In this document: positions 20,336-26,872 of the stretch, in pieces | Position numbering within the stretch: the first letter of the stretch is position 1 | Layout: each line of letters begins with the position of its first letter | Source of the DNA: an uncultured Meiothermus sp. | GTDB taxonomy: Bacteria; Deinococcota; Deinococci; Deinococcales; Thermaceae | Assembly (NCBI GenBank): GCA_937950405.1 | Contig: CALFDH010000151.1 | Span: 1 to 39,578, forward strand | Direction: 5' to 3' | Length of the DNA stretch: 39,578 nucleotides | Notes under the pieces: generated by a model | What the model was told of the DNA's origin: nothing | Database searches by the model: none | Seen by the model: only the letters and a program-made list of their open reading frames with translations | Made by a program: the position numbers and the translations under genes

Positions 20336-20468
20336 TACCGGATTCAAAAAGATAATCACCAAAACTAAAGACCTTCAGAGGCTGTCTTTTTGAATCCTAG
20401 AGCACACCCCTCCCTTCGGTCGGGTCAGTTCGTCCCCGAATGGGAGAAGAACTGACCGAATCTGGTAT
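20335..20468 (+). repeat. Repeat family A, copy 3
   Basis: A 134-bp copy running from ATACCGGATTC to GAATCTGGTAT. Stem 1 is GGATTCAAAAAGATA with TGTCTTTTTGAATCC. Stem 2 reads GGTCAGTTC with GAACTGACC, where the other copies have GGTTAGTTC with GAACTAACC. That is a compensatory T-A to C-G change. It starts at the last base of the gltX stop codon. Confidence 0.88.
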
Positions 20469-20587
20469 TGAACCCACTTCATCTGAACGCTCAACTTTGA
20501 TGAATCCCCACACTCGGCGAACCCCCGGGGCTAAAGCGCAAAACCAGAGGCTCTGCTAGGAGTATGTAGGTCGTTGATCCCTTTGAC

Positions 20588-20631
20588 TGGGCTCGTTCGT
20601 CCCCGTTTAGCGACAAACCAACCGAATCTGA
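20588..20631 (+). repeat. Degenerate half copy of repeat family A
   Basis: gggctcgttcgtccccg..cgacaaaccaaccgaatctg resembles the right half (stem 2 and terminal repeat) of the family A element at 20430-20468. It lacks the left half and the last bases of the terminal repeat. It abuts the mqnA stop codon. The 120 bp between it and copy 3 contain nothing I recognise. Confidence 0.5.
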
Positions 20632-21522
20632 CTACACATCCCAGTAGTCGTCGGGATAGGGCAGCCCCACGGCCTGGGCAAAGGCTTGCAGGCCCAGCCG
20701 GTCGGGGGCTTCCAGGTGGTAGCGGAAGTTCCACAGGTAGTGCTGCATCAGGCGCTCGGGCACGTTCAGGCGCTGGGCCTCGGTGCCGGCCACGGCGGCC
20801 AGGTTGCCCAGCCCCAGCGAACGGGCTGCCCGCAGCCGCCGGATAATTTCGGGCGGTGGGGGGGCGGTTTTGCGGGTGGCCCAGACCGCGAATACAAAGG
20901 GTAGCCGGGTCTGCTCGAACCAGCGCATCGAGAGGTCGGTTATGCGAATGCCCTCGACCTGGGTGGGCACCTGGTGTACCGACTCGGGGATGATGGAGAG
21001 CAGGCCAAAGTAGGTGGAAATAGCCCGGTCGCCAATCAGGAGTACCCCGTCGTAGCGCTCCAAGAGCTCGAGGCCGACAGGCGCGAGCTTGCCCGAAGCA
21101 GCGGGGCTGTTCTCAGGGCTTTCCGAGGGCCTGGTTTGATGCTCGAGGCCGCCCTGCTCGGGGGTGAACCGGGCCTCGATTCCGTCGGTCTGTAGCAGGT
21201 ATTGCAATAGCCGCACCGAGGTGGCGCTCTCGGTGGTCAGGGCGATGTGCCGGAGCTCGCTCCAGGGCTTTCGGTGGAACAGATTAACCGAGTACACCGG
21301 GCCCAGGTCGGCCACGCTGAAGTCGGGGAGGGGCCGCAGGTGGTCGGCGTTTTCCAGGTAGAAATAGGAAGAAACCAGGCTCAGGTCTACCGAGCCCTCC
21401 AGCAGCCAGCGGTTGAGCTCGGTGGGCACGCCGTAGCGAAAGGCCACCCCGTCTCCCTCCTCCAGAAAGTGATAGAGCGGGGCGGTGTTGGCGTAGCGGG
21501 GGACACCCAATATATAGCTCAT
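20632..21522 (-). CDS. mqnA: Chorismate dehydratase (futalosine pathway), with a 25-residue insertion
   Basis: 296 residues. MqnA dehydrates chorismate to 3-enolpyruvylbenzoate, the first step of futalosine menaquinone synthesis. The family pattern is clear: ILGVPRYANTAPLYHFLE, PTELNRWLLEGSVDLSLVSSYFYLENADHLRPLPDFSVADLGPVYSVNLF, LTTESATSVRLLQYLL, YDGVLLIGDRA, and a C-terminal QHYLWNFRYHLEAPDRLGLQAFAQAVGL. Between ARFTPEQGG and LELLERYDGVLL sits HQTRPSESPENSPAASGKLAPVG, encoded by a 75-bp segment that recurs in the ABC-F gene. Without it the protein would be 271 residues with a smooth junction. Translation starts 9 bp after the mqnE stop, so the two form an operon. The insertion is in frame, so function may be kept. 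Confidence 0.93.
   Translation of the reverse strand: MSYILGVPRYANTAPLYHFLEEGDGVAFRYGVPTELNRWLLEGSVDLSLVSSYFYLENADHLRPLPDFSVADLGPVYSVNLFHRKPWSELRHIALTTESATSVRLLQYLLQTDGIEARFTPEQGGLEHQTRPSESPENSPAASGKLAPVGLELLERYDGVLLIGDRAISTYFGLLSIIPESVHQVPTQVEGIRITDLSMRWFEQTRLPFVFAVWATRKTAPPPPEIIRRLRAARSLGLGNLAAVAGTEAQRLNVPERLMQHYLWNFRYHLEAPDRLGLQAFAQAVGLPYPDDYWDV
21066..21148 (-). mobile_element. 75-bp in-frame coding insertion, copy 1 (in mqnA)
   Basis: On the minus strand CCTCGAGC (21141-21148) and CCTCGAGC (21066-21073) are direct repeats exactly 75 bp apart. The 67 bases between them match the ABC-F copy at 53 positions (about 79% by manual alignment). The longest identical blocks are CAGCCCCGCTGCTTC, GCTCGCGCCT and AAAGCCCT. 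The encoded peptide is HQTRPSESPENSPAASGKLAPVGLE. Both copies are read in the same frame of the element. Deleting one repeat plus the intervening DNA restores GGLELLERYDG. The direct repeats could be target duplications, or may simply reflect insertion at the very common CTCGAG. Confidence 0.8.
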
Positions 21523-24841: not shown

Positions 24842-24894
24842 GCGGTGTCCGATCACATTCAACCTTGGCAAGTCTCCCAAAATGCTCCGCTTGC

Positions 24895-24900
24895 TAAACT
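24895..24900 (+). promoter_or_regulatory. Probable -10 box (TAAACT) for a leaderless ABC-F mRNA
   Basis: TAAACT ends seven bases before GTG 24908, where the conserved N terminus (MRIVFAENIEYSLGARDLL) begins. The alternative GTG 24845 in the ORF track would add 21 residues encoded across this promoter. Confidence 0.55.
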
Positions 24901-24907
24901 AGCAGTT

Positions 24908-26872
24908 GTGCGGATTGTTTTTGCCGAGAATATCGAATACAGCCTGGGCGCACGCGACTTGCTGGACGGGGTGAGCCTGGAACTGCGCCACGGCGACCGC
25001 CTGGCCCTGGTAGGAGCCAATGGCTCGGGCAAGACCACCCTGATGCGCTTGCTGATGGGGGAACTACAGCCGAGCTCGGGACGTGTTCACCGTACCGAGG
25101 GGGTGCACCTCGAGCTCTTGCCCCAGGACCCCCAGTACGGCCCCAGCGATACCGTAGAAAGCGTGCTCAAGCGTGGGTTTGCCCGGATACGGGCCATGGA
25201 AGCCGAACTGGCCCGGCTGGAAACCCACCTGGCCGATCCCGAAATGTATCAGCGCTGGGAGGCGCTGCACGAGCGCTACGAGGCCATTGGGGGTTATCAG
25301 CAGCGTTCGCGTTACGAGGCTGTGCTGAAGGGGCTGCGCTTCGAGGGGCGGGAACAGGAAAAAGCCAGCGTACTCTCGGGGGGCGAGACCCGGCGGCTGG
25401 CGCTGGGCGCACTATTGCTCTCGGGGTCGGATGCGCTCTTGCTGGACGAGCCCACCAACCACCTCGACCTCGAGATGGTGGGCTGGCTGGTAAACTTCCT
25501 GCAATCCTTCGGGGGGGCCACGGTCACGGTCTCGCACGACCGGCAGTTTCTCGACCAGGTGACGGAGCGGGTGGCCTGGCTGCGCAAGGGCAGGCTCCGA
25601 CTCTACGAAGGCAACTACTCAGCTTTTCGCCGCGAACGGGCGCTACAGGAAGAACAGGAAGCCCGCGAATACGCCAACTGGCTCAAGGAAAAAGAGCGGC
25701 GCGAAGGCATTCTGGAGCAGGCTCAGCGCTGGGCACATAGCAGCGCCAAACACGCCAGGCGGCTCCATAGCCTGGAAGCCCGCCTGGAGCAGTTCATGCA
25801 GGAGGCGGCAGAGGCCCCTGAATCAGACGACCCCGCCGTGCGGATTCGTTTTCCAGTCGAAAAAGAGGTAACCGCCGAGCGGGTATTGGAGGGCTGGAAC
25901 CTGCAAAAAACCCTGGGGGAGCGGAGGCTGTTTGAGATTCCCAATCTGCTGGTTCGGAATGGGGAGCGCATTGCCATCATAGGCCCTAACGGGGCTGGCA
26001 AGACCACCCTGCTCAAGGTGCTCCTGGGGCTGCTGCCCTCTGATCACCCGGCGGGGCGGGTCAAAACCGGGCCGGGGGTGCGGGTTGGCTACTACGACCA
26101 GAAGTTGTCGGATTTCGACCCCCAACTTACCCTGTTCGAGACGCTCTACCGGATGCTGGGCGAGAAGGCCCATGCCGCGCTGGCGGCATGGATGTTTCCC
26201 TACGAAGCCCAGTACAAGCAGGTAAAGAGCCTGTCCGGGGGCGAGCGGGCCCGGCTGGCCCTGCTGGCGCTCTCGTTGCAGCAAGCCAGCCTGCTGGTGC
26301 TGGACGAGCCCACCAACCACCTGGACCTGGAAACGGTGGAGGCCCTCGAGCAAGCCCTGCTGGCCTACCCCGGCACCCTGCTGTTGGTCTCGCACGACCT
26401 GTTTTTCCTCGATCAACTGGCCACGCGTACCTGGCACGTCTTCGAGGGGGAGTTTGCCGACTATCCGGGCCCACCCGGCGAGTACCTCGAGCGCAAGACG
26501 AGGCTCTCGCAAAGCCCTAAGAGCAGCCCCGCTGCTTCCAGCAGGCTCGCGCCTACCGGCCTCGAGCGCCGCAAGGCCGAGGGGGAGCCCAGGAAGCAGG
26601 AGCGTTCGGTGTCGAGGGTCGAAACCCAGAACCCCAAGCCCCCCAGAGCCAAAGGGCGCTGGCACCTGGAGCGCGAGAAAGAACGCCTGGAGGCCGAGAT
26701 TGCCGACCTCGAGGCCCAAGTACAGTCTGTTCTGGCCAGGGCCAACCAGCCGGGCCTGCACCACAGCGAGTACGCCCAGATTGCCCAGGAGCAGCAACGG
26801 CTCGAGGCCGCCCTCCAGCAGACCTTTAGCCGCTGGGCGGAGGTGGTTGAGGGGCTCGAGGGCCTGGCTTGA
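24908..26872 (+). CDS. ABC-F family ATPase (Uup/YdiF-like), with a 25-residue insertion
   Basis: 654 residues from GTG 24908. It has two ABC domains and no membrane segments. Walker A1 is ALVGANGSGKTTLMRLL, signature 1 is LSGGETRRLALGALLL, and Walker B1 is ALLLDEPTNHLDLEM. The inter-domain arm follows (EEQEAREYANWLKEKERREGILEQAQRWAHSSAKHARRLHSLE). The second set is [33 protein letters not shown] and LVLDEPTNHLDLETVE. The C-terminal coiled coil (LEREKERLEAEIADLEAQVQSVL) is typical of Uup/YdiF-type ABC-F proteins, which act on ribosomes or on DNA branch structures. In the linker before the coiled coil, RKTRLSQSPKSSPAASSRLAPTGLE is encoded by the 75-bp element also found in mqnA; removing it gives a natural GEYLERRKAEGE. 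Confidence 0.93.
   Translation: MRIVFAENIEYSLGARDLLDGVSLELRHGDRLALVGANGSGKTTLMRLLMGELQPSSGRVHRTEGVHLELLPQDPQYGPSDTVESVLKRGFARIRAMEAELARLETHLADPEMYQRWEALHERYEAIGGYQQRSRYEAVLKGLRFEGREQEKASVLSGGETRRLALGALLLSGSDALLLDEPTNHLDLEMVGWLVNFLQSFGGATVTVSHDRQFLDQVTERVAWLRKGRLRLYEGNYSAFRRERALQEEQEAREYANWLKEKERREGILEQAQRWAHSSAKHARRLHSLEARLEQFMQEAAEAPESDDPAVRIRFPVEKEVTAERVLEGWNLQKTLGERRLFEIPNLLVRNGERIAIIGPNGAGKTTLLKVLLGLLPSDHPAGRVKTGPGVRVGYYDQKLSDFDPQLTLFETLYRMLGEKAHAALAAWMFPYEAQYKQVKSLSGGERARLALLALSLQQASLLVLDEPTNHLDLETVEALEQALLAYPGTLLLVSHDLFFLDQLATRTWHVFEGEFADYPGPPGEYLERKTRLSQSPKSSPAASSRLAPTGLERRKAEGEPRKQERSVSRVETQNPKPPRAKGRWHLEREKERLEAEIADLEAQVQSVLARANQPGLHHSEYAQIAQEQQRLEAALQQTFSRWAEVVEGLEGLA
26485..26567 (+). 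mobile_element. 75-bp in-frame coding insertion, copy 2 (in the ABC-F gene)
   Basis: CCTCGAGC occurs at 26485-26492 and 26560-26567, exactly 75 bp apart, as in mqnA. The segment between encodes KTRLSQSPKSSPAAS and SRLAPTG. Small stems can be drawn (AGCAG-ccccg-CTGCT and AGGC-tcgc-GCCT); the second is imperfect in the mqnA copy. The insertion falls in the flexible linker between the second ABC domain and the C-terminal coiled coil (about residues 527-552), a site that tolerates extra sequence. Confidence 0.8.

Follow-up and report, generated by a model that had tools for sequence, protein, structure and literature searches.

A CTCGAG-bounded repeat of 72 to 75 bp, present in frame in unrelated Meiothermus genes and cleanly missing from their orthologues

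The DNA analyzed here, called the window below, is the whole of contig CALFDH010000151.1 (39,578 nucleotides; assembly GCA_937950405.1) from an uncultured Meiothermus sp. Two genes within it, mqnA and an ABC-F ATPase gene, each carry one copy of a short repeat bounded by CTCGAG. The features are listed by window position, with the strand where one applies.

20632..21522, minus strand: open reading frame of the host gene mqnA (chorismate dehydratase, menaquinone biosynthesis), identified by family model PF02621; 296 aa including the insert
21067..21147, minus strand: element copy 1, of the 75-bp type, in frame in mqnA, both CTCGAG included (sequence match; empty site in orthologues)
21067..21072: CTCGAG repeat on the 3' side of the mqnA insert
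21142..21147: CTCGAG repeat on the 5' side of the mqnA insert
24845..26872, plus strand: open reading frame of the host ABC-F ATPase gene, identified by family models
26486..26566, plus strand: element copy 2, of the 75-bp type, in frame in the ABC-F gene, both CTCGAG included (sequence match; empty site in six orthologues)
26486..26491: CTCGAG repeat on the 5' side of the ABC-F insert
26561..26566: CTCGAG repeat on the 3' side of the ABC-F insert

In both genes the hexamers are spaced 75 bp apart and CTC GAG is in frame; the encoded peptides are LEHQTRPSESPENSPAASGKLAPVGLE (mqnA) and LERKTRLSQSPKSSPAASSRLAPTGLE (ABC-F). When the mqnA copy was searched against the whole genome, its match to the ABC-F copy extended over 83 bp with 83% identity (E = 1e-18), a resemblance far above chance. 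The two copies, 5.4 kb apart, are each other's closest relatives. A preliminary description of this DNA had claimed an in-frame segment common to mqnA and the ABC-F gene and lying between CTCGAG direct repeats 75 bp apart. Both copies are present as placed in these genes, with one correction: the ABC-F copy is real, but it begins at 26486, near the end of a gene that starts at about 24845-24908. It follows the second ABC domain and precedes the C-terminal domain PF16326. The MqnA insert is located in the gap separating two stretches that match solved MqnA structures. Downstream of mqnA, at 20411-20630, the window also harbors a different intergenic hairpin repeat, in two copies 166-167 bp apart (GTTCGTCCCCG...CCGAATCTG).

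The mqnA copy, used as DNA, found further copies on other contigs of its own assembly, and a peptide search recovered the same set, so the absence of further copies, which would have refuted the preliminary description, did not occur. With a covariance model built from 14 copies, this genome (G000) gave 28 matches at E ≤ 1, 19 of which were strong. The genus-wide search with the model identified carriers among 14 of 18 Meiothermus genomes, with E values down to 1e-17, and did not detect the element in the remaining four (G001, G008, G011, and G015). When orthologous sites were merged by their flanks, about 35 distinct sites remained in the genus. The weak model matches L167 and L160 were excluded from this count; L167, considered as a copy, was rejected because it looks like a Walker-A ATPase segment of the usual kind. 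Outside the genus, 43 genomes from the same family and order, Thermus included, yielded no convincing match, only three borderline ones (E of 0.003-0.009) that we regard as noise. No real match came from collections of phages, plasmids, and viral contigs. A scan across genomes for the pattern of the ends returned one record from Meiothermus hypogaeus; four others, scattered among unrelated bacteria, look like chance. Literature searches, in which most subscription journals were not covered, revealed no earlier description of such a Meiothermus repeat.

The layout of a typical copy is CTCGAG-CGTCAGACGAGGC-(some 37-40 bases that vary)-GCTCGCGCCTGTCGGC-CTCGAG, with conserved ends and a variable middle. 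Counting one CTCGAG, the units are 72, 73, 74, or 75 bp long and form rough subfamilies; the commonest unit is 72 bp within genes and 74 bp outside them. The 75-bp type, introduced in the preliminary description as a 25-codon element, thus exists, but it is one of several subfamilies and lengths, and some copies are non-coding. Units also form tandem arrays with a period of 72-75 bp, arranged head to tail, in which neighbors have one CTCGAG in common. An array near a gene start on contig C1 of G016 (L161:2009-2388) has a composite period of 149 bp (74 + 75); automated annotation could mistake arrays like this one for CRISPR. At one orthologous site, in a host protein without a Pfam match (L163:2005-2160, L146:2006-2299, L179:2025-2105, and L169:1995-2381), a related unit occurs in varying number and reads LEARRARA...ASSSLE on the other strand. 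Elsewhere in G000 (contig C168, L051:776-3076), a copy lies between an IclR/BhcR-like regulator and acetate-CoA ligase; a single open frame spans both, running 767 aa to the end of the locus, and the pair is possibly fused or overlapping.

The central evidence for the family is the existence of empty orthologous sites. Filled host genes were aligned at the DNA level with orthologues from other Meiothermus species, and nine hosts display a clean insertion at one CTCGAG: mqnA, the ABC-F gene, trpA, an allantoate-amidohydrolase-like gene, abxC, an addB-like gene, dnaG, priA, and metH. Where the insert is missing, the site consists of a single CTCGAG or a close variant (e.g., CCTGGAG); where it is present, CTCGAG occurs twice. 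In all nine hosts the difference corresponds to one unit (several in the addB-like gene), and base-level orthologue alignments revealed no partial unit at the empty sites. The earlier proposal of a mobile, in-frame element that targets CTCGAG is supported by these nine genes, in which the net gain amounts to precisely one unit of 72 or 75 bp, or to several in tandem. Besides mqnA, family models identified trpA (TIGR00262), dnaG (TIGR01391), metH (TIGR02082), the ABC-F and allantoate amidohydrolase-like genes, the bacilliredoxin gene abxC, and priA; no family model matched the addB-like gene, which we take to be addB from our own reading of the sequence only. Orthologues of this gene contain 0, 1, 2, or 3 units depending on the species. 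The copy in dnaG has the orientation opposite to that in the other hosts, indicating that both orientations occur, and the metH insert is translated in another frame, indicating that more than one frame is used. All of this comes from comparison, each species being represented by a single genome, and movement was not directly observed; it is not always possible to distinguish insertion from loss, or from replacement of a whole gene through natural transformation.

Among 12 MqnA orthologues that are 80-97% identical to the window protein, 10 lack exactly 25 residues; occurrence of the same peptide in orthologues without any mobile history would have spoken against the preliminary description, and this was not encountered. 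The insert at the mqnA site is common to G000 and G002 only, and the two inserts are 77% identical to each other, compared with 83% between the mqnA and ABC-F inserts of G000 and 90% between the addB inserts of G000 and G002. The close relatives G006, whose MqnA is 97% identical to that of the window, and G003 have no mqnA insert. Taken together, these comparisons suggest, as the simplest reading, that G000 and G002 acquired their inserts by two independent insertions at the same CTCGAG, although one old insertion followed by several losses is not excluded.

Within the window, 70 of the 77 CTCGAG hexamers located in open reading frames lie in the CTC GAG frame, and insertion at CTCGAG will therefore usually add a Leu-Glu-flanked peptide in frame. 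The total insert length is a multiple of three at all 16 verified in-gene sites, in contrast to 10 of 19 other sites (Fisher p = 0.0015; orthologous sites merged), and the copies at these 16 in-gene sites are all stop-free in the host frame. Copies with other lengths or with stops were seen only between genes or at the 3' ends of genes. As the in-gene class was defined by open frames plus family or orthologue support, broken genes would have escaped it, and the length test is therefore suggestive of selection but not a measure of it. The trpA gene with an insert harbors a second copy at its extreme 3' end (L188:2060-2137; G000 C104:6259-6336), where a TAG within the element terminates the host frame (...RAGLER-stop).

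We infer that the inserts are translated, although expression has not been shown, and that the host proteins keep their function; the latter rests on the intact reading frames of genes such as dnaG, priA, and trpA and has not been shown either. In an AlphaFold2 model of TrpA (five sequences), the barrel has a mean pLDDT of 71, and the insert at residues 144-167, between the helix at 135-145 and the strand at 170-175, is the only long stretch below 50. The insert is thus predicted by the model to be a disordered loop. In a comparison with the Thermus TrpA structure 1ujp, it lies between the two matching stretches. The structure model of MqnA was too poor for use (mean pLDDT of 44.5).

Beyond CTCGAG itself, inverted repeats do not exceed chance (complementarity of the left and right arms, 5.15 versus 5.13 in shuffled sequences). 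A palindrome comprising the whole element was considered and rejected, as the first fold, that of A1, was without compensatory pairs and the arm test was negative. A small right-end hairpin (xCC..GGx') does exhibit compensatory change at its closing pair (66 G-C and 11 A-U); this is mostly confined to one subfamily and may therefore reflect a single event. Some copies fold as a hairpin with paired ends, with z-scores that are mostly weak (-0.4 to -1.3, and one of -3.5). A search of Rfam gave no match above the gathering score. When the 18 genomes were searched with the pattern of the ends, short copies and a single copy with another repeat nested in it were all that came up, and no autonomous relative of greater length with these ends; the survey of transposases was not exhaustive. 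The sole long copy, of 373 bp (contig C140 of G000, L264:4066-4438), contains an unrelated repeat and no transposase. It is situated at the 3' end of a gene resembling a TrmH-type RNA methyltransferase and is interrupted by a non-coding repeat of about 300 bp with CCCTACGACGTAGGGG-type hairpins.

Could the copies have arisen without a mobile family? A single recombination or gene conversion between mqnA and the ABC-F gene would fit the close relationship and the 5.4-kb distance of the window copies, but it is refuted as a general explanation by the further copies in the genome and by the roughly 35 distinct sites across the genus, and is the least credible of the alternatives; conversion between these two copies in particular remains possible. 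Minisatellites born locally, by tandem duplication in each gene, with the likeness between genes due to chance or to convergence on CTCGAG, would account for the arrays of 72- to 75-bp period and their varying copy number. However, single copies in unrelated genes have both ends and part of the middle in common, as in mqnA and the ABC-F gene, one model recovers copies throughout the genus, and the empty sites retain no partial unit. The common ends of single copies at unrelated sites largely refute a local origin, to which we assign very little weight. Bypassed elements occur in some yeast mitochondria, and it is conceivable that the element is spliced from RNA or skipped by ribosomes, leaving the host protein unchanged. 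Excision at the exact direct repeats would restore the gene, and the end-paired fold of some copies is compatible with such removal, but the fold scores are mostly weak, and neither a length in multiples of three nor the absence of stops would be needed, yet both hold at every verified in-gene site. RNA removal or ribosomal bypass is disfavored because of this frame rule and seems to us slightly less remote than a local origin, though still very improbable.

Other alternatives accept movement and differ in the enzyme. A CTCGAG-specific nuclease of the XhoI type might free a unit that is then religated into other CTCGAG sites, which would agree with the bounding of all units by CTCGAG, the single CTCGAG at each joint, and the two orientations of insertion. 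A nuclease, however, would not require conserved ends beside CTCGAG around a variable middle, the arrays observed are head to tail, and no XhoI-family endonuclease was matched in the 18 genomes; the control genomes also gave none, so that this search is without a positive control. We regard cutting and ligation as no more plausible than RNA removal. The right-end hairpin with its compensatory change, mostly in one subfamily, would be consistent with movement, by a Y1 (RAYT) transposase, of an element that is REP-like or derived from IS200/IS605. The distribution of Y1_Tnp argues strongly against this mover: it is missing in the carriers G000, G014, G004, G013, and G017 (genome completeness is 86% for G000 and 99% for G014) and present in the non-carriers G001 and G015. 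We therefore place it among the poorest candidates, on a par with the local minisatellites.

We propose that the repeat represents a family of small, non-autonomous, site-specific mobile elements of the genus Meiothermus, whose stop-free subfamilies with lengths divisible by three survive inside genes as translated linkers, and we estimate the probability of this reading at roughly 85%. The family, its spread, the empty sites and their precision, the length rule, and the changes in tandem copy number are observed, while mobility through a trans-acting enzyme is inferred. Units of 72-75 bp would enter exactly at CTCGAG, either way round, with one CTCGAG remaining on each side. In these genomes CTCGAG is mostly read as CTC GAG (Leu-Glu), and units of 72 or 75 bp are divisible by three and lack stops in the frames used; for these reasons such units would persist in genes as translated linkers of 24-25 residues. 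Head-to-tail amplification could proceed via the CTCGAG common to adjacent units. The putative mover is a transposase or site-specific recombinase acting in trans and reading the conserved ends; no such enzyme was found. Insertion may duplicate a 6-bp target, or a circular form may recombine at a core of 6 bp; the data do not choose between these routes.

The nearest parallel is offered by the palindromic elements of Rickettsia (RPE; Ogata 2000, 2002), which are about 150 bp long and lie in frame in unrelated metabolic genes (summarized in PMC10969869). The Meiothermus element resembles them in being dispersed, in its in-frame insertion into unrelated genes with empty orthologues, and in forming translational fusions. 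The parallel with Rickettsia drawn in the preliminary description thus holds for behavior but not for membership: the Meiothermus units are shorter, at 72-75 bp, are not significantly palindromic beyond CTCGAG, and are found in a free-living thermophile of the Deinococcota, with a fixed hexamer target and clean empty sites. Palindromic repeats that code for protein are also known from Wolbachia and Methanocaldococcus jannaschii; there too, stretches of several codons are inserted in frame into housekeeping genes, typically in unstructured segments. They differ in lineage, and the accessible portion of that account mentions no fixed hexamer target (PMC2996958). The same source describes PARCEL coding repeats, which are likewise mobile, form tandem arrays inside proteins, and have empty sites in relatives, but lie mostly in membrane or surface proteins and are spread over distant taxa (PMC2996958), whereas the Meiothermus element is limited to one genus and occurs largely in cytoplasmic enzymes. 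Like MITEs, it is short, non-autonomous, and present in many copies with a direct target repeat at both ends. The change from one CTCGAG at the empty site to two at the filled site satisfies target-site duplication, although it is indistinguishable from recombination at a 6-bp core. Unlike MITEs, the element has no significant terminal inverted repeats inside CTCGAG, and the duplicated target is always the same palindrome. No partner insertion sequence came to light in the end-pattern searches and a non-exhaustive survey of transposases. REP sequences with RAYT differ in that they are extragenic, while the Meiothermus element occupies at least 16 independent in-gene sites, and several of its carriers are without the Y1 transposase.

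A bolder proposal can be held only tentatively, and we consider it rather unlikely as a whole: that Meiothermus has a dedicated recombination system that places a coding cassette in CTCGAG (mainly in-frame Leu-Glu) by means of an enzyme whose family has not yet been associated with elements of this sort, so that the target itself would deliver an in-frame linker to many proteins, including enzymes of replication and core metabolism. To our knowledge, in-frame coding mobile repeats are known mainly from Rickettsia, Wolbachia, and one archaeon, and their mechanism and target rule are unsettled. A free-living thermophile now provides a case independent of these: the empty sites of the Meiothermus family are precise, its target is fixed, the number of tandem copies varies, and its hosts are central ones (DnaG, PriA, TrpA, and MqnA). 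Two questions thereby become testable: by what route such elements move, and how a folded protein can gain a new peptide segment and stay intact.
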